This document shows positions 135 through 11,551 of a DNA stretch of 38,250 bases, piece by piece (position 1 is the first letter of the stretch; each line of letters starts with the position of its first letter). The DNA is taken from contig JASBRS010000016.1 of assembly GCA_030149325.1 (NCBI GenBank), positions 1 to 38,250 of the forward strand, read 5' to 3'. Position numbers and translations under genes: made by a program. Source of the DNA: Deinococci bacterium. Its GTDB lineage: Bacteria > Deinococcota > Deinococci > Deinococcales > Trueperaceae. Under the pieces are notes generated by a model that was given only the letters and a program-made list of their open reading frames with translations, was not told the origin of the DNA and made no database searches.

Positions 135-1118
135 CTAGCGGCCGCCGGCCCGCAGCTCGTCGAGGTCGGCCGCGGTCAAGCGGACGGGACCAGGCCGTAC
201 GGCGGCGAGATCGAAGTCCGCCACCAGCTCCCGGGGCGCCACCGGACGCGGCTCCGGCAGCAGCCCCAGGCCGTGCGCCAGCAGCCCCACCACGCGCTCG
301 GGCGCCACGCCCGCGGCGCGCAGCCCGCGCAGCGTCAGCGAACCGCGGCGCTTGGCCAGGCGCTCCCCGCTCTCGTCGAGGAGCAGCGGCAGGTGCAGGA
401 AGGCGGGGGCGTCGAGGCCCAGCGCCCGGTAGAGGAGCAGTTGGCTGCCCGTCGACGGCAGCAGGTCGTCGCCGCGCACCACCTCGGTGATGCCCATGGC
501 GGCGTCGTCGACGACGGTGGCGAGCTGGTAGGCCCACAGGCCGTCGGCGCGCCTCACGATCACGTCGCCGAGGTCGACCCCCACCTCGAAGCGTTGCGGT
601 CCGGCCACGAGGTCGTCGAAGGCGAGGACGCCGGGGCCGGCTCGGACGCGCAGGCTCGGCACCTTGCCGGCGCCGCGCCTGGCGGCCGCCACGCGCTCGT
701 TGGCGCGGCGCTGCGCCGCGCCGTACACCGGGGTCGCGCCGTGCGGCGCGCTGGCGACGTCGTGGAGCTCGCGGCGCGAGAGGTAGCAGGCGAACACCAG
801 GCCCTGGCGCTCGAGCTCCGCCAGGGCTGCGGCGTAGCGGGGGCCGCGCTGGCTCTGGCGGTAGGGCCCGTGGGGACCGCCGACGTCGGGTCCCTCGTCC
901 CAATCGAGCCCCAACCAGGCGAGCTCCTCGAGGTTGCCGTGCACGGCGGCCTCGACCGTCCGCGGGCCGTCGAGGTCGTCGACGCGCAGCACCAACCGAC
1001 CGCCCTGCCGGCGGGCTCGCAGCCACGCCAGCAGGGCGGTCCGGGCGTTCCCCAGGTGGAGGTCGCCGGTGGGGGAGGGGGCGTAGCGCCCCCGGTAGGC
1101 GGGGTCGGGGACCGTCAT
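135..1118 (-). CDS. gluQ: Glutamyl-Q tRNA(Asp) synthetase (GluQRS)
   Basis: The 327-residue product is a short glutamyl-tRNA synthetase paralogue. It has the class I catalytic core but no anticodon-binding domain, which is the GluQ layout. The family activates glutamate without tRNA and attaches it to queuosine at position 34 of tRNA-Asp. HIGH-type motif HLGN is at residues 21-24 in a PSPTGDLHLGN context, and the KMSKS-like motif KRRGS is at 256-260. The zinc site is degraded: of the CxC...YxxxC set seen in E. coli YadB, only Cys111 remains (CYL for CxC, and the later Cys is lost in YGAAQRR). It lies 31 nt after sucD on the same strand, probably as the last gene of that transcript. No clear ribosome-binding site precedes the ATG, so the exact start is less sure than the identity. 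Confidence 0.9.
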   Translation of the reverse strand: MTVPDPAYRGRYAPSPTGDLHLGNARTALLAWLRARRQGGRLVLRVDDLDGPRTVEAAVHGNLEELAWLGLDWDEGPDVGGPHGPYRQSQRGPRYAAALAELERQGLVFACYLSRRELHDVASAPHGATPVYGAAQRRANERVAAARRGAGKVPSLRVRAGPGVLAFDDLVAGPQRFEVGVDLGDVIVRRADGLWAYQLATVVDDAAMGITEVVRGDDLLPSTGSQLLLYRALGLDAPAFLHLPLLLDESGERLAKRRGSLTLRGLRAAGVAPERVVGLLAHGLGLLPEPRPVAPRELVADFDLAAVRPGPVRLTAADLDELRAGGR

Positions 1119-1149
1119 CGACGGCTGCCCACGGACCGTGCCCGCCGGC

Positions 1150-2084
1150 TCAGGCCTTGCCGGCCTTGGCCATCGCCTCCAGCATGGCCGTTCCCATGTC
1201 GCTGGGGGTCGAGGCCACCACCACGCCGGCGGCCTCGAGCGCGGCGATCTTGTCCTTGGCCGTGCCCTTGCCCCCGGAGATGATGGCGCCGGCGTGCCCC
1301 ATGCGCTTGCCGGGAGGCGCGGTGGTGCCGGCGATGAAGGCGGCCACCGGCTTGGTCATGTTGTCGCGGATCCAGGCCGCCGCTTCCTCCTCGGCCGAGC
1401 CGCCGATCTCGCCGATCATGATGACGCCCTCGGTGGCGGGGTCGGCGTTGTAGAGCTCGAGCACGTCGACGAAGTTGGTGCCGTTGACGGGGTCGCCGCC
1501 GATGCCGACGGCGCTGGTCTGACCGAGGCCGTTGTCGGTGAGCTGCTTGACGGCCTCGTAGGTCAGGGTGCCCGAGCGGCTGACCACGCCGATGCGGCCC
1601 CCCTGGTGGATGTAGCCGGGCATGATGCCGATCTTGCACTGGTGCGGGGTGATCACCCCGGGGCAGTTGGGGCCCACCAGGCGGGTGGCCGAGCCCTGCA
1701 GCGCGCGCTTGACGCGCACCATGTCCATGATCGGGATGCCTTCGGTGATGGTCACCACCAGCCCGAGGCCGGCGTCGGCCGCCTCGAGGATGGCGTCGGC
1801 GGCGAACGGCGGCGGCACGAAGACCACGCTGGCCGTCGCGCCCGTGGCGGCGACGGCGTCGGCCACGGTGTCGAAGATGGGCACGTCGACCTGGTAGCGG
1901 TCGGGACGCCCGGGGACGCCGGAGTGGTCGGTCTCGCCCTCGAAGCGCTCGGTCTCGCCCCCGCGCCCGGGGTGGACGGCGGCGACCATCTGGGTCCCAT
2001 AGGCGATGGCCTTGTCGGTGTGGAAGCGCCCGGCGCTGCCGAGCCCCTGCACCAGGACCTTGGTGGTGTCGTCGACGAGGATGC

Positions 2085-2088
<4 letters not shown>
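1150..2088 (-). CDS. sucD: Succinyl-CoA ligase [ADP-forming], alpha subunit
   Basis: SucD forms the CoA-binding and phosphohistidine-bearing half of succinyl-CoA synthetase, the TCA enzyme that converts succinyl-CoA, ADP and phosphate to succinate, ATP and CoA. The 312-residue protein has the phosphohistidine motif MGHAGAI (His265), the GNCPG-type motif as GPNCPG (139-144), SRSGTLTYE (170-178) and the GIGGDP loop (195-200). The start ATG overlaps the sucC stop as ATGA (2085-2088), so translation is probably coupled. Two oddities stand out. The N-terminal CoA-binding loop, normally GITGxxG, reads GLGSAG, about one residue shorter. About 20 extra residues (roughly 44-67, ETERFEG...QVD) sit between the PGRGG and VPIFDTV blocks, where Thermus-type SucD has only about four. 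Confidence 0.95.
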
Positions 2089-3308
<1,220 letters not shown>

Positions 3309-4623: not shown

Positions 4624-5526
4624 ATGGATCCGATACTCGTTCACATCGGGCCGCTGGCGATCCGCTGGTACGGCTTCCTCATCGCGCTCGCGGTCCTGAT
4701 CGGCGCTCTCTGGGGGCTGCGCATCGCCGAGCGCCGCGGCCTGGATCCCGACAAGCTGCTGGACGCTGCGGTGTGGTTGGTCCTGGCCGGCATCATCGGG
4801 GCGCGCCTGGTGTACGTGGTGACCAGCCCGGCGGCGTTCTTCGGGCCCGGCGGGCATCCGCTCGATGCCTTCAAGATCTGGCAGGGGGGCATCAGCATTC
4901 ACGGCGGCATCCTCGGGGTACTCGTCGCCATGGCCATCTACAGCCGCATCCAGGGCATCAACATGTGGGCCTACATGGACGTGCTGACGCCGCTCGGCGC
5001 GCTCGGCATCATGGGCGGTCGGATCGGCAACATCATGAACGGCACCGACACCGGCGGCCGTCTCACCGACCTCGCCATCGGCATCAACTGGCCCAAGCCC
5101 GGCACGCCCTTCCTCGGCGGCTTCGGCCGCTTCCTGTTCGGCAGCGACCTGTGGCAGTTCGCGCCGCCGGTGTGCCGCACGGTGCCGGCCGGCCAGCCCT
5201 GCCACGTGCACTTCGCCCAGGCCTACGGCTTCCTGGTGGGGTTCATCCTGCTCTTCATCGTGCTGTGGGCGTTGCGGCACAGCCGCAAGCCCGGCTACGC
5301 CTTCTGGCAGTTCGCGCTGTGGTACTCGGTGCTCCGTAGCCTGTTGGAGGAGCCCTTCCGCGACAACCCGCTGTTCTGGAAGGTCTTCGACAACGTCCAG
5401 GCGGGGATCGGCTTCTTCACCCTGACGCAGCTCGTGAGCATCCCCATCATCCTGGTGTCGATCTACATGCTGTACACCCTGCACGACGCGGACGCACCGG
5501 CGTCCGCCCAGCCCACGCGACGATGA
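4624..5526 (+). CDS. lgt: Prolipoprotein diacylglyceryl transferase
   Basis: Lgt is the polytopic inner-membrane enzyme that moves diacylglycerol from phosphatidylglycerol to the lipobox cysteine of prolipoproteins. The 300-residue protein has seven or so membrane segments. It carries the HGGILG motif (His93), the signature GGRIGNIMNG (131-140, with Arg133, Asn136 and Asn139) and a C-terminal LRSLLEEPFR block (Arg238) matching the essential Arg239 region of E. coli Lgt. The residue after the signature, Glu151 in E. coli (NGE), is Thr141 here (NGTDTGGR). GAGAGGA precedes the ATG by about 7 nt. Its stop overlaps the glmU start as ATGA, so the two genes are co-translated. Confidence 0.93.
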   Translation: MDPILVHIGPLAIRWYGFLIALAVLIGALWGLRIAERRGLDPDKLLDAAVWLVLAGIIGARLVYVVTSPAAFFGPGGHPLDAFKIWQGGISIHGGILGVLVAMAIYSRIQGINMWAYMDVLTPLGALGIMGGRIGNIMNGTDTGGRLTDLAIGINWPKPGTPFLGGFGRFLFGSDLWQFAPPVCRTVPAGQPCHVHFAQAYGFLVGFILLFIVLWALRHSRKPGYAFWQFALWYSVLRSLLEEPFRDNPLFWKVFDNVQAGIGFFTLTQLVSIPIILVSIYMLYTLHDADAPASAQPTRR

Positions 5527-6509
5527 CGGCGACCGCCGCCGGCGTGAGCGTGGTGGTACTGGCCGCCGGGCAGGGGACGCGCATGCGTTCGGCGCTGCCC
5601 AAGGTGCTGCACGAGGCCGCCGGGCGCCCGTTGCTCGATCACGTGCTGAGGGCGGTCGAGGCCATCGCGCCCGAGCGCGTGCTGGTGGTCGTGGGCCACC
5701 AGGCCGACGCCGTACGGAGCCGCTTCGCCGGGCGCGGCGTGGGCTTCGTGGAGCAGCGCGAGCAACGCGGCACCGGACACGCCCTGCTGGCCACCCGCGG
5801 CGAGCTGGAGCGCGACGGGGGACGCGTGCTGGTCGTCTACGGCGATCAGCCGCTGGTCGATCCCGCCACCCTGCGCGGGCTGGTGCAGACGCAGGCGCGC
5901 CTCGGCGGCGCCGTGATGCTGACCTACGAGATCGACGATCCCTTCGGGATGGGCCGCGTGGTGCGCGGCGCCGACGGCGCCATCGAGCGCGTGGTGGAGG
6001 AGAAGGACGCCACCGCCGAGGAGCGCGCCATCCGCGAGGTCTACCCCGGGGTGTTCCTCTTCGACGAGGCCGTGTTCGAGCTGGCCGAGGGTCTCACCGA
6101 CGACAACGCCGCCGGCGAGTACTACCTGACCGACATGGTCGAGCTCTACCGCCAGAGCGGTCGCGGCATCCACGCCTTCCGGGGCGAGGACGCCATGCGC
6201 CTGCTGATCGGTGTCAACACGCGGGCCGAACTTGCGCGTGCCGAGGGCCTGCTGCGCGACCGTACGCGGCAGCACTGGCTCGCCGCCGGCGTGACCATGC
6301 ACCATCCCGCTGCTACCTTCCTCGACGACGACGTCGAACTGGGGCCCGACACCGTGCTCGAGCCCGGCGTGATGCTGCGCGCCGGCACGCGCGTGGGCGA
6401 GGGCGCACGGATCGGGGCCTACGCCGTGCTCGACGGCTGCACCGTCGCCGCGGGCGCGTACGTCGCGCCCCACACGGTAGCCCGTGGCCGCACCTTCAGC
6501 GCCGACTGA
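5523..6509 (+). CDS. glmU: UDP-N-acetylglucosamine pyrophosphorylase, GlmU-like and C-terminally short
   Basis: The 328-residue protein carries the complete uridyltransferase half of GlmU: LAAGQGTRMRSALPKVLH at 13-30, QRGTGHALL (81-89), YGDQP (106-110, metal-ligand Asp108), EEKDA (159-163), the EYYLTDM block (199-205) and GVNTRAELARAE (230-241). A left-handed beta-helix follows from about residue 255 but stops after four or five hexapeptide turns. The acetyltransferase active site (Lys351/His363 region of E. coli GlmU, usual length about 450) is absent. It should make UDP-GlcNAc from GlcNAc-1-phosphate and UTP, with GlcN-1-phosphate acetylation done by another protein. No frameshift explains the short end: the convergent GH32-like gene ends only 5 nt beyond. 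It overlaps lgt by 4 nt. Confidence 0.88.
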   Translation: MTATAAGVSVVVLAAGQGTRMRSALPKVLHEAAGRPLLDHVLRAVEAIAPERVLVVVGHQADAVRSRFAGRGVGFVEQREQRGTGHALLATRGELERDGGRVLVVYGDQPLVDPATLRGLVQTQARLGGAVMLTYEIDDPFGMGRVVRGADGAIERVVEEKDATAEERAIREVYPGVFLFDEAVFELAEGLTDDNAAGEYYLTDMVELYRQSGRGIHAFRGEDAMRLLIGVNTRAELARAEGLLRDRTRQHWLAAGVTMHHPAATFLDDDVELGPDTVLEPGVMLRAGTRVGEGARIGAYAVLDGCTVAAGAYVAPHTVARGRTFSAD

Positions 6510-6514
6510 GCCGC

Positions 6515-8020
6515 TCAGCCACCTGCCTGTGGGGTGCCGGCGCCCCTGCCGAGGGGGCCACGGCCGGGCCGATCGACCGGCGCCTCCAGCGTCTCCAGCG
6601 TGAGGTCGTGCAGGCGCAGGCGGGCGCTCTCGGCGTAGAAGCCGACGCGCCCCTCGCGGTAGTGCTCGTCGGCCAGCGTCAGGAGCACCGCACCGTCGAG
6701 CGAGAACTCCAGGTACGAGCCGTAGGCAACCAGCTCGAAGGGGTGCGGGTCGCCGTGCGCCAGGTAGTAGTTGGCCTGCAGGGGCAGGTAGTCGAACGAC
6801 GCCTCGACGTCGCCGCCGGGACGGGCGCCCCAGGCCCGGAGCTGCGCCAACCCCTTGGGGAGGTCGAGGCTCAGGTAGTAGCCGTCGCCCTCGTCGCTGA
6901 GGCGGAAGGCCAGCCCGATCTTGCCCTCGCCGTCCATGTGCAGCTCGCCGCGGAGCCGGAAGTCGCGGGCGCGGCCGGGCAGCACGAAGGTCTCGAAGCC
7001 GCTGTCGCAGCCGAAGAGGGCGACGCCGTCGGCGGCCTCACTGACCGCGCCGGTCAGTCCGTGGAGGGGCTCGAGCGGGAGCAGCGCCTCCGACGTGGCG
7101 ACGTCGACCACGTGCCGGTCGAAGCCGTGGAAGCTCGCCAGGAAGAGCTGACCGTCGTCGGCGACGCGCAGCTCCTTGGGGGGCGGGAGCAGGTGACGGC
7201 CGTCGCCGACCCGCCCCTTGAAGTAGAAGTTCCACACCAGCCAGCGCTCGCCGTCGCGAGCCACGCGCGCCGCGTAGTTGCCCTGCGGCAGCAGCACGTT
7301 GTCGGAGTAGTTGAGGTAGGGCCCCTCGAAGGCGTCGGCGTGCCAGTAGTGGACCTTGACGTCCTCGCGGACGGAGCCGAGCAGGTACCAGCGGTCCCGC
7401 AAGGCGACCGGCACCGGGACCTCGATGTCGTCGTAGCGGCTGGGGTGGAACAGCGGCGAGCGGACCTCGAAGCGATCGGGAGCGGTCTCCTCGAACAGGG
7501 CCACGGCGCCGCGCCGGATGACCGGCCCACGGTCGATGCGGGCGGCCGCCAGCAGGAAGCCGCGCTCGCCGATGCGCACGTAGTAGGGGTCGCGGAGCGA
7601 CACCCAGTGACGACCCTGGTCGAGCCGGTACTCGTACGGGGGGGAGGCGAGCTCGAGCGGGAAGTCGCCGCTCTCGTCCTTCTCCCAGTGGTGGAGGTCG
7701 CCCGAGCGCGCCAGGCCGATGCGCTGTACCCGACCGCGTTCCGACATGCTGAGCCCGGTGTAGAACATGCGCCAGCCGCCCGCCCGGTGGGGGTCGGGGG
7801 AGACGCTCATGGTCCACAGCATGTCGTCGTCCCAGCTCCCGGGGTCGCCGATGAACAGCGCGTTCTCGACCCGCTCCCAGCTCAGGCCGTCGTCGGAGAC
7901 GGCATGCGCGATGTAGTCGTGGTTGGGCAGCACCAGGTGGAAGAGGTGGAAGCGGCCCTCGTGGACCACGACCTCGACGTCGCCGATCTCGCTGGTGCGG
8001 AACCCGAAGCCCGCGTACAC
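6515..8020 (-). CDS. GH32/GH43-like (clan GH-J type) five-bladed propeller protein
   Basis: The predicted 501-residue protein resembles GH32 fructosidases in pattern but is divergent. A block GRFHLFHLVLP...YIAHAVSDDGLSWERV (22-51) matches the family blade after the nucleophile, RDPYYVR (143-149) the conserved RDP transition-state motif, and DIEVP (198-202, Glu200) the position of the acid/base. The usual NDPNG is not recognisable; Asp14 in EIGDVEVVV is the best nucleophile candidate. Residues about 345-480 look like a beta-sandwich of the GH32 C-terminal or CBM66 kind. I chose the GTG at 8020, 10 nt after the SPS stop and behind GAGGGGGCGGGC; a longer reading would run into the SPS gene. No signal peptide is seen, so it is probably cytoplasmic. 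Its place after SPS-SPP suggests sucrose or a related fructoside as substrate. Confidence 0.72.
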   Translation of the reverse strand: MYAGFGFRTSEIGDVEVVVHEGRFHLFHLVLPNHDYIAHAVSDDGLSWERVENALFIGDPGSWDDDMLWTMSVSPDPHRAGGWRMFYTGLSMSERGRVQRIGLARSGDLHHWEKDESGDFPLELASPPYEYRLDQGRHWVSLRDPYYVRIGERGFLLAAARIDRGPVIRRGAVALFEETAPDRFEVRSPLFHPSRYDDIEVPVPVALRDRWYLLGSVREDVKVHYWHADAFEGPYLNYSDNVLLPQGNYAARVARDGERWLVWNFYFKGRVGDGRHLLPPPKELRVADDGQLFLASFHGFDRHVVDVATSEALLPLEPLHGLTGAVSEAADGVALFGCDSGFETFVLPGRARDFRLRGELHMDGEGKIGLAFRLSDEGDGYYLSLDLPKGLAQLRAWGARPGGDVEASFDYLPLQANYYLAHGDPHPFELVAYGSYLEFSLDGAVLLTLADEHYREGRVGFYAESARLRLHDLTLETLEAPVDRPGRGPLGRGAGTPQAGG

Positions 8021-8030
8021 GCCCGCCCCC

Positions 8031-10274
8031 TCAGGTCCCTTCGCCGGGAGCGTCCGGCGCCTTGGTGAAGCCGTAGTGCCGGAGTCCCTCGAGCACGCCA
8101 TCGGCCAGCTCGCCGCGCGCGAAGTAGATGCCGCGTCGCCCCCGCAGCTCCGCCACCTCGGGAGCATGGTTGCCGACCACCACGGCGGGGTAGCGCCCGG
8201 TCAGCATCTCGGTGTCGTTGCCGGAGTCGCCGGCCACCACGACATCGGCGCTGGCGACCCCCCACTTGCGGGTGAGGTAGCGGATGGCCTTGCCCTTCGA
8301 CGCCCGCGAGGGCAGGACGTCGAGGAAGGCACCGCCCGAGTGGGCCACGGTGACGTGGAGGCCCGCTTCGGCCAGCGCATGGTGCACGGTCTCGAGGTGA
8401 CGCGCGGCGTCGTCCCCCTGGGCGTGCAGGTAGTAGCTGATCTTGAAGCGACGCTGGGCCTCCGGCGGCTGCGGCTCCAGGAAGGGCAGCGGGTCGAGTG
8501 CGGCGCGAACGCCGTCGGGCCTCCAGCCGTGGGACAGGTAGTGGGCGTAGCCGCGGTCGGGCACCGCCTCGGAGCCGTAGTAGATCTCGCTGCCGACGGC
8601 GCAGATCAGGACCTGCGGCGACGGGATGGGGTGCTCGGCCAGCGCCTGCTTCATCTGCTCGAGGCTGCGCCCCGAAGCCAGCGCGAAGGCGAGGTCGTGG
8701 TCGTCGATGGCGCGGGCGAGCCTGGCCAGGGCCTTGCCGTGGTCGGGCGCGTCGCCGATGAGGGTGCCGTCGATGTCGCTCACCAGCAGCCGGCGGCCGG
8801 GGCGGAGGTCGTCGCCGGCCCCGGTGCGCCAGGGCGCGGCCCGCAGCTCCGGCAGGCGCCGGCGGAGCTGCTCCAGCTCCTCCAGGTAGCTGTCGGCGTG
8901 GGCGTCCCAGGCGTAGTGCCGCCTGACTCCGTCGATGCCGTTGCCGGAGAAGCGGTCCCAGGTCTCGCGGTCGACCAGGATGCGCTTGAGCGCCTGCTGG
9001 ATGGCCTGCGTGTCGCGGGCATCCACCAGCAGCCCGCTCTCGCAGGTCCCGATGATGTCCTGCGGTCCGCCGTGGTCGGTCGACACCACCGGCAGTCCCG
9101 ACGAGCTCGCCTCGATCAGGGTGATGCCGAAGTTCTCGACCAGCGCCGGGTTGACGAACACCCCGCGGGTGGCGGCGGCGATGCGGTAGAGCACCGGGAT
9201 GTCGGTGTCGGGATCGTGCTTCTTGGGCAGCGCCAGGCGGCCGTAGAGGTCGTAGCGGTCCATCAGCATGAGCATGCGCGTGAGCACCTCCTGCTCGTTG
9301 TCGTCCATCTGTTCGATGTCCTTGCGCACGCCCGCGAAGATCGCCAGGTTGGCGATCTGCTGCAGCTCCTTGTCCTCGCCGTAGGCGGTCAGCAGGCCGT
9401 CGATGTTCTTGCGCCGATCGGGGCGGCTGATGGCGAGGATGAGGGGCTTGTCCGGCTGATGGAGGAAGCGGTGGATCTCCTGCCGCATGCGCACGCGCGC
9501 CCGCACCACCTCCTCGCCGGGATCGAAGGCGTCGTCGAGGTCGTAGTAGAAGGGGTAGAAGGTGTCGACCTCGATGCCGGGCGGGATCACCCGGTAGCGC
9601 GCCTGCGGACTCGACTCGTAGAGCTCGTAGCCGCGCTGCACCTCGTGCTGGGTGCTGGCGATGACCACGTCGGCCTTGCGCAGCATCTCCTCCTCGACGG
9701 CGATGCGGTGGCGGATGTGGTAGTGGCGGTCGATGTCGTCCGGGGCCATGCCGGCCCCCTCGAGGGCGCGCAGCTTGTTGCGGCCGAGCGAGTGGCCGGT
9801 GAACACCAGCGGTGCCCCCAGCACGCTGGCGAGCTGCAGCGCGACGTAGCCGGCGTCGGCGTAGTGGCCGTGCACCACGTCGGGGTCGATGCCGTGGGCG
9901 CGGTCGTAGCGCAGCACCCCCTCGACGAACTCGTCGAGCATCGGCCACAGCAGCTCCTTGCGCCGGTAGCGGCTGCCGCCGGCCTTGATGCGGATCAGGC
10001 GGGAGCGCTCGCCGAGGATCTCTTCGGGTCGGGCGTAGTCGTCGGAGACGCGTGGGTCGTCGATCAGACGCGTGAACAGGTCGACGCGGCGGACGCCTTC
10101 GTGGCGCCCGAGCGCTCGGGCCAGTTCGACCACGTACTTGGTCTGGCCCCCCGTGTCGGCGTCCCGGCCGAGCTCCGGATCGTGGCCCCGGATCAGGCCG
10201 TGGACGCTGAACATCTGGATGACGAGGCCGTCTCCGCCGTCGCGGTTCGTGTCGCGGTTCGTGCGGTCGGACAT
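8031..10274 (-). CDS. Sucrose-phosphate synthase fused to sucrose-phosphate phosphatase
   Basis: A 747-residue two-domain enzyme. Residues 1-475 are a GT4 sucrose-phosphate synthase: the plant-like SVHGLIRG...ELGRDADTGGQTKYVVELA block (23-52), HGHYADAG (135-142), SRPDRRKN (283-290) and the retaining GT4 motif ENFGITLIEAS (380-390, Glu380 and Glu388). Residues about 490-740 are a HAD sucrose-phosphatase with DIDGT (500-504, nucleophile Asp500), SGR (534-536) and GDSGND (682-687). Together they convert UDP-glucose (or ADP-glucose) and fructose-6-phosphate to sucrose. The ATG at 10274 has GGAGG nine nt upstream. The next gene on the same strand is GH32-like, 10 nt away, so the pair probably shares a transcript. 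Sucrose could serve as compatible solute or glucan precursor. Confidence 0.93.
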   Translation of the reverse strand: MSDRTNRDTNRDGGDGLVIQMFSVHGLIRGHDPELGRDADTGGQTKYVVELARALGRHEGVRRVDLFTRLIDDPRVSDDYARPEEILGERSRLIRIKAGGSRYRRKELLWPMLDEFVEGVLRYDRAHGIDPDVVHGHYADAGYVALQLASVLGAPLVFTGHSLGRNKLRALEGAGMAPDDIDRHYHIRHRIAVEEEMLRKADVVIASTQHEVQRGYELYESSPQARYRVIPPGIEVDTFYPFYYDLDDAFDPGEEVVRARVRMRQEIHRFLHQPDKPLILAISRPDRRKNIDGLLTAYGEDKELQQIANLAIFAGVRKDIEQMDDNEQEVLTRMLMLMDRYDLYGRLALPKKHDPDTDIPVLYRIAAATRGVFVNPALVENFGITLIEASSSGLPVVSTDHGGPQDIIGTCESGLLVDARDTQAIQQALKRILVDRETWDRFSGNGIDGVRRHYAWDAHADSYLEELEQLRRRLPELRAAPWRTGAGDDLRPGRRLLVSDIDGTLIGDAPDHGKALARLARAIDDHDLAFALASGRSLEQMKQALAEHPIPSPQVLICAVGSEIYYGSEAVPDRGYAHYLSHGWRPDGVRAALDPLPFLEPQPPEAQRRFKISYYLHAQGDDAARHLETVHHALAEAGLHVTVAHSGGAFLDVLPSRASKGKAIRYLTRKWGVASADVVVAGDSGNDTEMLTGRYPAVVVGNHAPEVAELRGRRGIYFARGELADGVLEGLRHYGFTKAPDAPGEGT

Positions 10275-10393: not shown

Positions 10394-11551
10394 ATGCTGT
10401 TCAGCAAGCCCCCTGCAGTCCTGGCCCTGGAAGACGGCACCGTCTACTACGGCTACGCCTTCGGCTTCCCCGGTCGCACCATCGGCGAGGTGGTCTTCAA
10501 CACCTCCATGACGGGCTACCAGGAGATCCTGACCGACCCCAGCTACAAGGGGCAGATCGTCACCATGACGTACCCTCACATCGGCAACTACGGCGTGAGC
10601 GTGTACGACATGGAGTCCAACCGCCCCTACGCCCAGGGCTTCATCGTGCGCGAGTTCAGCCGCACCGCCTCCAACCACCGCGCCAACCAGGACCTGCAGA
10701 GCTTCATGGAGCAGCACCGCATCGTCGGCATCGAGGGGATCGACACGCGCGCGCTGACGCGCCGCCTTCGCACCGGCGGGGTGGTGAAGGGCGTCATCCA
10801 CCACGGCGAGGTCGACGACGACCTCGAGGCCGAGCTGGTGCGGCTCGCCCGCGAGCACCCCGACATCGACGGGCGCGACATGACGCCCGAGGTCACCACC
10901 CCGTTGCCCTACGCGCGGCCGTCGTTCAACGAGCACCCGCGCGTGGTGGTGATGGACTTCGGCATCAAGCATTCGATCGTCTACAAGCTCGAGCAGGCGG
11001 GGGCCGAGGTCATCGTGGTGCCGGCCCAGACCACGCCCGCGCAGATCATGGCGCTCGACCCCTACGGCCTGGTGCTGTCCAACGGCCCCGGCGACCCCGA
11101 CGGCCCCAAGTACGCCCACGACACCGTGTGGCAGCTCCTCGGGCTGCTGCCGACCTACGGCATCTGCCTCGGCCACCAGTTGCTCGGACTGGCCGTCGGC
11201 GGGCGCACCTTCAAGCTGCGCTACGGCCATCACGGCGCCAACACCCCGGTCAAGAACGTCGTCACCGGCGCCGTCGAGATCACCAGCCAGAACCACAACT
11301 ACGCCGTCGACATCGACTCCATCCCGGGCCGCCAGTTCGTGGCCACGCACATCAACCTCAACGACGGCACCCTGGAGGGCATGGCCCACCAGCGCTACCC
11401 GGTGTTCAGCGTGCAGTACCATCCCGAGGCCAGCCCCGGACCGCACGATGCCGACTACCTGTTCCGCCGCTTCATCGAGGAGGTCAACGCCTTCGAGGGC
11501 GCGACCGCCCTGCCGGCGGCCGGCACGGGTTCGCTGATCGGCACGCTGTGA
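10394..11551 (+). CDS. carA: Carbamoyl-phosphate synthase, small (glutaminase) subunit
   Basis: CarA hydrolyses glutamine and passes ammonia to CarB for carbamoyl phosphate, the precursor of pyrimidines and arginine. The 385-residue protein has the N-terminal CarA-specific domain ([20 protein letters not shown] at 35-54, and SNHRANQDL) and a C-terminal class I glutamine amidotransferase. The triad is visible: Cys258 in [12 protein letters not shown], and His343 and Glu345 in [10 protein letters not shown]. The oxyanion block SNGPGDP is at 229-235. GGAGGAG lies 5 nt before the ATG. carB is not in this window. It diverges from the SPS gene and converges on the ABA4-like gene, which ends 7 nt after it. 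Confidence 0.96.

Follow-up and report, generated by a model that had tools for sequence, protein, structure and literature searches.

A GH32-like protein encoded beside a sucrose-phosphate synthase-phosphatase fusion in a Trueperaceae bacterium, and its conserved pairing with sucrose-type synthases

The window analyzed here is a stretch of 38,250 nucleotides (nt) from a Deinococci bacterium of the Trueperaceae (assembly GCA_030149325.1, contig JASBRS010000016.1, positions 1 to 38,250, forward strand). It carries a gene for a fused sucrose-phosphate synthase (SPS) and sucrose-phosphate phosphatase (SPP), followed on the same strand by a gene for a protein resembling glycoside hydrolase (GH) family 32, here called the partner (Table 1). 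This arrangement had been proposed in a sequence-only reading of the same DNA, and our analysis bears it out. The fusion scores above the NCBI cut-offs of both equivalog models (TIGR02472, 582.3 bits versus 576; TIGR02471, 216.3 bits versus 209.75), and its Pfam S6PP match reaches 238.3 bits. The top-scoring solved structures were 2r60 for the synthase half and the SPP structure 1s2o for the phosphatase half. The short gap between the two genes suggests that they are co-transcribed.

The GTG start of the partner is backed by relatives that start at the same place (MYASHGF.., MYSGLGF..). A mechanical list of open reading frames (ORFs) opens the frame at 8167, upstream of this conserved start. 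An ORF on the opposite strand (6608-8068, +) was favored on codon composition by a crude ORF picker; we rejected it because all homology lies on the minus strand. The predicted nucleophile, D14, is only 13 residues from the start and leaves no space for a leader. It is therefore reasonable to regard the partner as cytoplasmic, and the earlier prediction to that effect is probably right.

Table 1. Features of the gene pair and its flanks in the window
Feature	Positions	Strand	Remarks
SPS-SPP fusion gene	8031..10274	-	747 aa, with the synthase at about residues 18-467 and the phosphatase at 494-736
Sucrose-phosphate phosphatase domain of the fusion	8067..8795	-	Pfam S6PP, residues 494-736
Intergenic gap between SPS-SPP and the GH32-like partner	8021..8030	-	10 nt, from the sequence
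GH32-like partner gene	6515..8020	-	GTG start at 8020, stop codon 6515-6517, 501 aa; from translation, relatives' starts, AlphaFold model and GH32 fold matches
D14, predicted catalytic nucleophile	7979..7981	-	In IGDVEV, where GH32 has NDPNG; L-INS-i alignment
R143-D144-P145, predicted transition-state stabilizer motif	7586..7594	-	Aligned with GH32 RDP
E200, predicted acid/base	7421..7423	-	Aligned with E221 of endo-levanase BT1760
Propeller domain, about residues 8-303	7112..7999	-	AlphaFold model; most GH43/GH68 matches stop at residue 299-303
C-terminal β-sandwich domain, about residues 316-480	6581..7075	-	Model secondary structure; two-domain GH32 matches extend to residue 478-484; hhalign
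GlmU-like convergent neighbor	5523..6509	+	Named by reading the sequence; adjoins SPS directly in resolved relatives without the partner
CarA-like divergent neighbor	10394..11551	+	Name read from the sequence; conserved on the other side of the SPS gene

Relatives of the partner were retrieved with two short peptides taken from two linked members, which gave 36 loci on genome contigs from 34 genomes (L032 and L033 share a genome, as do L024 and L035); divergent or unlinked members may be under-counted. One peptide starts at D14 and is matched by 4 of the 34 aligned rows. The other, WDDDM, is matched by 33 of 34, so its conservation is partly built in. For the alignment and trees, the near-duplicates L033 and L035 and the broken-frame L044 were dropped, and the incomplete L028 and L045 were kept. 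The GH gene of L044 (5002-6367) lies in two frames with a break near residue 90, which is either a true break or an assembly error. Labels of metagenome-assembled genomes may err; L011, for example, is labeled Acidimicrobiaceae and has the isolate name 'Acidobacteriota_15'.

Single-sequence searches with the partner were almost silent. Besides a partial Pfam GH32N match over 100 residues (23.2 bits versus a cut-off of 22.1), they gave one PDB chain at E 0.11. The GH32N score was unstable between runs (25.1 bits in one, unlisted in a whole-genome run), which places the protein at the edge of that model. All 34 aligned members match GH32N at E up to 1, the best at 3.7e-11. A profile built with 33 relatives retrieved GH32 chains, including 6r3r of the Bacteroides thetaiotaomicron endo-levanase BT1760 (E 1.4e-6), in which the two RDP motifs coincide and E200 aligns with residue 221. 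In 6r3u, which is entitled mutant E221A, the chain has Ala at the position aligned with E200. An hhalign comparison of the family with 21 GH32 proteins of the window's phylum gave E 2.5e-15 over 409 columns.

The AlphaFold model of the partner, made with 34 sequences (pLDDT 84.6, pTM 0.85), predicts the five-bladed propeller plus C-terminal β-sandwich that is the mark of GH32. It matches 7znr over both domains (Z 31.7, rmsd 3.8, 434 residues) and the Thermotoga maritima β-fructosidase (invertase) 1uyp over 400 residues (Z 29.6, rmsd 3.3). Foldseek rows 1 to 31 are fructan- or sucrose-acting enzymes, several of them titled GH32 and all of which we take to belong to that family; the first xylosidase appears at row 32. 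GH43 enzymes and the GH68 levansucrases and inulosucrases have the propeller in common with the partner, and presumably also a W-S-like pair (W69-T70 in the partner) and the order of acidic residues. However, their chains cover just 264 to 287 residues of the model, mostly propeller, whereas the partner has a GH32-type second domain. Pfam GH68 gave no match to the window protein at E up to 1; at the same threshold it is matched by 26 of the 34 members (best 8e-7). No member of GH68 turned up in the 111 genomes searched from the window's phylum.

Although the fold of the second domain agrees with GH32, Pfam GH32C is absent from the nine families matched by any of the 34 members at E up to 1. 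In a tree, the family sits on a long branch apart from GH32. Because the NDPNG motif and a GH32C match are both lacking, we class the partner as a variant close to GH32 and not as a GH32 member. A divergent protein of the GH-J type had been predicted from the letters, and the profile, fold and GH32N results agree with it. The C-terminal domain (6581-7075, minus strand) also has a weak Pfam 3-keto-disaccharide hydrolase match in 15 of 34 members (best E 0.0053), which probably reflects merely a common β-sandwich.

We then compared the catalytic residues in an L-INS-i (MAFFT) alignment of 24 rows, comprising 10 family members, 12 GH32 proteins and 2 bridging proteins. D14 falls on the Asp of NDPNG, and this column is Asp in all 24 rows. 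The RDP motif and the Glu fit in every row except L095, which has a two-residue insertion at RDP. D14, D144 and E200 do not vary among the 34 aligned members, which are labeled as nine phyla besides the window's. The predicted catalytic Asp, RDP Asp and Glu of GH32 are thus all present in the partner. The sequence-only reading had placed RDP at 143-145 and Glu at 200, correctly when counted from the GTG at 8020. It was also right that NDPNG is absent, with IGDVEV in its place, but the implied loss of the nucleophile is rejected, because the Asp of the motif is kept as D14.

In sum of resemblance, the partner matches BT1760 (6r3r, 6r3u, 7znr) and 1uyp in its domains over nearly the full length, in RDP, in the Glu aligned with the mutated E221 and in the Asp at the nucleophile position. 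It differs in having only 15 to 17% identity, no NDPNG, one residue fewer behind the nucleophile, no leader, family-specific motifs, and a gene kept beside a sucrose-type synthase. The NDPNG signature is not absolute, because a second protein in the window's own genome (L001, C9:22593-23465), positive for GH32N and GH32C, has FGDPK in its place; up to about 320 residues of open frame precede its GH32 domain. Another GH-J-like protein without NDPNG (L004, genome G038, 1039-3290) has WDFW at the nucleophile, shares 41% identity with the window protein across about 200 residues and is encoded directly upstream of a PfkB kinase. It possibly represents a sister group.

To map the neighbors of the GH genes, we ran tblastn with the window's SPS and SPP on the 36 loci and on a Paracoccus plasmid locus (L009). 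A synthase-like transferase lies within 7 kb of the GH gene in 34 of 36 loci: SPS in 7 and a related glycosyltransferase in 27. A phosphatase is present as well in 33 of 36, and L009 has both. In L028 the contig ends inside the GH gene, and a transferase is on another contig of its genome. L011 has the transferase beside the GH gene, with no phosphatase seen. For L037, a 6.4-kb contig, no transferase was found in the draft genome at E 1e-10; its GH gene (643-2268), with no synthase nearby, encodes a 36-residue insertion after the residue aligned with window residue 115. The coupling to SPS-SPP that had been read from one genome is therefore conserved far beyond it, and a local accident is rejected.

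In the seven SPS-type loci (Bacteroidota, Fibrobacter, Spirochaetaceae and Holophagaceae by label), the SPS is 44 to 52% identical to the window's. The GH gene is behind SPS-SPP in L038, L040 and L042, divergent in L039, L044 and L045, and ahead in L041. L038 has the same 10-nt spacing as the window if a TTG start is used. In the other 27 loci (mostly Alphaproteobacteria by label; also Planctomycetota, Woeseiaceae and L011), the transferase is 27 to 31% identical to the window SPS. The order there is GH, phosphatase, transferase on one strand in 26 of 27, and the GH stop overlaps the phosphatase start by 4 nt in L014. Because arrangements vary while the company stays constant, the linkage points to function rather than to descent of one operon. 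At L041 (8935-12053), a free-standing SPP-like phosphatase lies between the GH gene and the SPS-SPP fusion, and the genome (G114) has a second SPS-SPP match. Paracoccus plasmid genes labeled levansucrase (NZ_CP115776.1, NZ_CP025431.1) share about 29% identity with the window protein. No relative came from viral contigs, where five stretches matched a pattern and none was confirmed.

The related transferases linked to GH genes are here called GTa. The four tested all score far below the SPS cut-off (172.4 to 193.4 versus 576) and also below the MshA cut-off (211 to 229.6 versus 462.5). Three SPS-type partners were tested as well: L041 is over the SPS cut-off (618.2), and L040 (548.1) and L045 (545.2) are slightly below it. 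The GGQ, K, Y and R positions, which bind the phosphate of the acceptor in SPS as well as in MshA, are kept in GTa and SPS rows alike (33 of 33). This supports a phosphorylated acceptor for GTa, though not fructose in particular.

We also took a sample of 151 genomes from L014's family, labeled Rhizobiaceae. At E up to 1e-100, 18 of them have the transferase, 5 of the GTa type and 13 of a second type, GTb. All five GTa genomes have GH, phosphatase and transferase; one is L014's own, two are apparently the genomes of L022 and L025, and two are new. GTa makes up a separate clade, 45 to 51% identical to GTb, and in this sample the GH gene occurs only in GTa clusters. The GH gene thus goes with one synthase clade and not with every such operon. 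A mannosylfructose pathway (MfpsA/MfppB) was reportedly described in Agrobacterium by Torres and Salerno in 2007. The second partner kind, a transferase with an SPP-like phosphatase, resembles that pathway, and the Rhizobiaceae GTb-phosphatase pairs are probably the mannosylfructose pair itself. A search of a plasmid collection gave no name for the second transferase, and no named MfpsA sequence came up.

The partner appears to be a late arrival at its locus. In the 111 genomes of the window's phylum, we searched for SPS at E up to 1e-60 and for the full-length partner, with the family profile, at E up to 1e-20. The fusion or its synthase part occurs in 21 of them, and the full-length partner only in the window's genome. 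Three other genomes match it over about 200 to 270 propeller columns only. A GH32N match on the same contig as SPS was found in 0 of the 20 other SPS genomes, a soft negative, as the assemblies are fragmented and this whole-genome control missed the window's own gene; the family profile is the stricter test. In 4 of 10 relatives' regions the GlmU-like and SPS genes abut, 10 to 149 bp apart, with no partner between them, and the CarA-like gene is on the other side of SPS in 6 of 10. Two of the ten contigs end at SPS, and the ORF picker reported no GlmU in four.

The window SPS groups with the SPS of the host family (SH-aLRT 99), whereas the window GH groups with L011 (97/96), whose synthase is GTa. 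The kind of synthase changes at least two times on the GH tree. A single clade of SPS-linked members was rejected (p-AU 0.0067), in a test that involves long branches and was made after the first tree was seen. Because the synthase tree follows the host family and the partner tree does not, acquisition of the partner behind a resident SPS is probable and well supported.

From the computed gene pair, fold, complete triad in the sequence and conserved linkage, we infer the substrate, a preference for hydrolysis over transfer, the regulation and the biological role as follows. We suggest, with a probability of roughly 0.58, that the partner is a cytoplasmic retaining β-fructofuranosidase of the GH32 type that serves turnover of a sucrose-type solute. 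In this scenario, D14 would attack the anomeric carbon of a terminal β-fructofuranosyl unit, E200 would protonate the leaving sugar, and D144 would hold the fructose in the transition state. The natural substrate would be the dephosphorylated product of the adjoining synthase and phosphatase. That would be sucrose where the neighbor is SPS-SPP, as in the window, and the corresponding glycosyl-fructose where it is the related glycosyltransferase with a phosphatase. Because the partner serves two kinds of synthase, it should recognize a feature common to both products, most simply a β-fructofuranosyl end. A GH32-type pocket would cleave such an end whatever the other sugar. The solute may be recycled to hexoses upon relief of osmotic or desiccation stress, and the balance of synthesis and breakdown may be set by regulation of enzyme activity and not by separate transcripts.

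The sequence-only reading had argued that a sucrose hydrolase in the same transcript as sucrose synthesis would be futile unless the partner did something else. That argument is weaker than it was put. According to excerpts of one study (PMC6753628), Synechocystis both makes and hydrolyzes sucrose in the cell, with Sps, Spp and a neutral invertase, and its sucrose level is set by the balance of synthesis and invertase breakdown. The excerpts add that salts inhibit this invertase in vitro, that its mutant holds sucrose even without salt, and that the enzyme's family is unrelated to β-fructofuranosidases (PMC6753628); they mention no shared transcript. Regulated turnover, the last option named in the sequence-only reading, therefore needs nothing exotic.

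Fructose set free by hydrolysis would have to be phosphorylated by a kinase. In L011, a ScrK-like fructokinase gene lies directly beside the GH gene (E 1.8e-72; 244.2 bits, under the NCBI cut-off of 400), and in L034 and L036 PfkB kinases lie behind the cluster. These three cases fit release of fructose. The window's genome has four ROK-family matches elsewhere.

Several points weigh against turnover by a β-fructofuranosidase. In tblastn searches with two queries, of which one was the L011 kinase, just 3 of 37 loci showed a fructokinase neighbor. All 13 GTb-type genomes have the transferase followed by the phosphatase, with no GH gene within the 5 to 12 kb examined; because 13 of 18 Rhizobiaceae transferase genomes have no adjoining GH gene, a dedicated fructosidase is not obligatory there. 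The product of GTa itself is only a candidate glycosyl-fructose. The motifs near the triad (LPNHD, WDDDMLWTM, YDDxExP, GNYAAR and LPPPKE) are specific to this family, and the substrate may accordingly be something other than plain sucrose. Finally, the hhalign alignment begins at residue 17, and its ungapped extension places D14 on the Pro of NDPNG, one residue off. The position of D14 in the nucleophile column depends on a one-residue gap that MAFFT sets. Structural alignment pairs residue 8 with 35 in 6r3r and 6r3u (D14 with 41 if ungapped) but residue 7 with 35 in 7znr, and is therefore good to one residue only.

The alternative that survives best is transfer. The partner could use sucrose or a related disaccharide as a fructosyl donor and make a longer fructoside, such as a kestose-like trisaccharide or a fructosylated solute; the genes would then form one biosynthetic pathway with no futile cycle. 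Transferases are indeed among the fold matches: levan fructotransferase 4ffh (Z 29.1), plant 6-SST/6-SFT 3ugf (Z 28.3) and inulosucrase 7bj4 (Z 26.0, 286 residues). The GH gene directly precedes the phosphatase and transferase in nearly all GTa loci, and in our opinion such an order is commoner among genes for pathway steps than among those for breakdown enzymes. However, the top-ranked folds are hydrolases, and kinases able to take free fructose lie beside the GH gene in L011 and close to it in L034 and L036. On the nearest folds and these kinases we prefer hydrolysis, and consider transfer possible but unlikely. In its bolder form, the family would be a dedicated intracellular fructosyltransferase that makes a hitherto undescribed fructosylated compatible solute from fresh sucrose or a sister disaccharide, and SPS, SPP and the GH32-like protein would be a widespread three-step osmolyte pathway. 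We regard that proposal as rather doubtful.

It is improbable that the partner hydrolyzes the phosphorylated intermediate (sucrose-6F-phosphate or an analogue) or a side product, as proof-reading or overflow control. The GH gene does travel with the phosphatase as well as the synthase, and the fold matches include the sucrose-6-phosphate hydrolase 6nu7 (Z 27.2). Against this, an SPS-SPP fusion would be expected to leave little free intermediate. In addition, the known GH32 sucrose-6-phosphate hydrolases act on sucrose with the phosphate on glucose, whereas the SPS product carries it on fructose, the sugar that occupies the tight -1 site.

A hydrolase or phosphorylase of another glycoside, GH43- or GH130-like and beside SPS by history only, seems quite improbable. 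There are weak GH130-type matches (NF052550 at E 0.0016; 9fj8 at E 0.00025 with the profile), and 32 of 34 members match Pfam GH43 at E up to 1 (best 1.6e-9). For the window protein, NF052550 reaches only 17.9 bits versus a cut-off of 450, and neither Pfam GH43 nor GH130 was reported at E up to 1. GH32 is best in the Pfam, profile and fold searches, GH32 chains have both domains, and the synthase link recurs under many phylum labels. A catalytically inactive or regulatory role, with binding of the disaccharide and control of the synthase, as the lost NDPNG and the long branch away from GH32 might suggest, is highly improbable, because a mere binder would need none of the three catalytic acids that are invariant in all 34 aligned members.

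The GH32-like proteins are thus a real, widely conserved and apparently uncharacterized family tied to the synthesis of sucrose-type solutes. The sole annotated copy that we saw bears the name 'hypothetical protein', and literature searches returned no paper on a GH32-like/synthase pairing among the matches listed. The family adds a third element to bacterial sucrose-type solute synthesis, under many phylum labels and with two different synthase kinds. If it is a recycling enzyme, cells would have one more way to dispose of such solutes, in addition to sucrose synthase, amylosucrase and neutral invertases. If fructose transfer is true, a class of solutes has been missed. The pairing in very distant bacteria suggests that breakdown or reworking of the protective sugar is built in with its synthesis.

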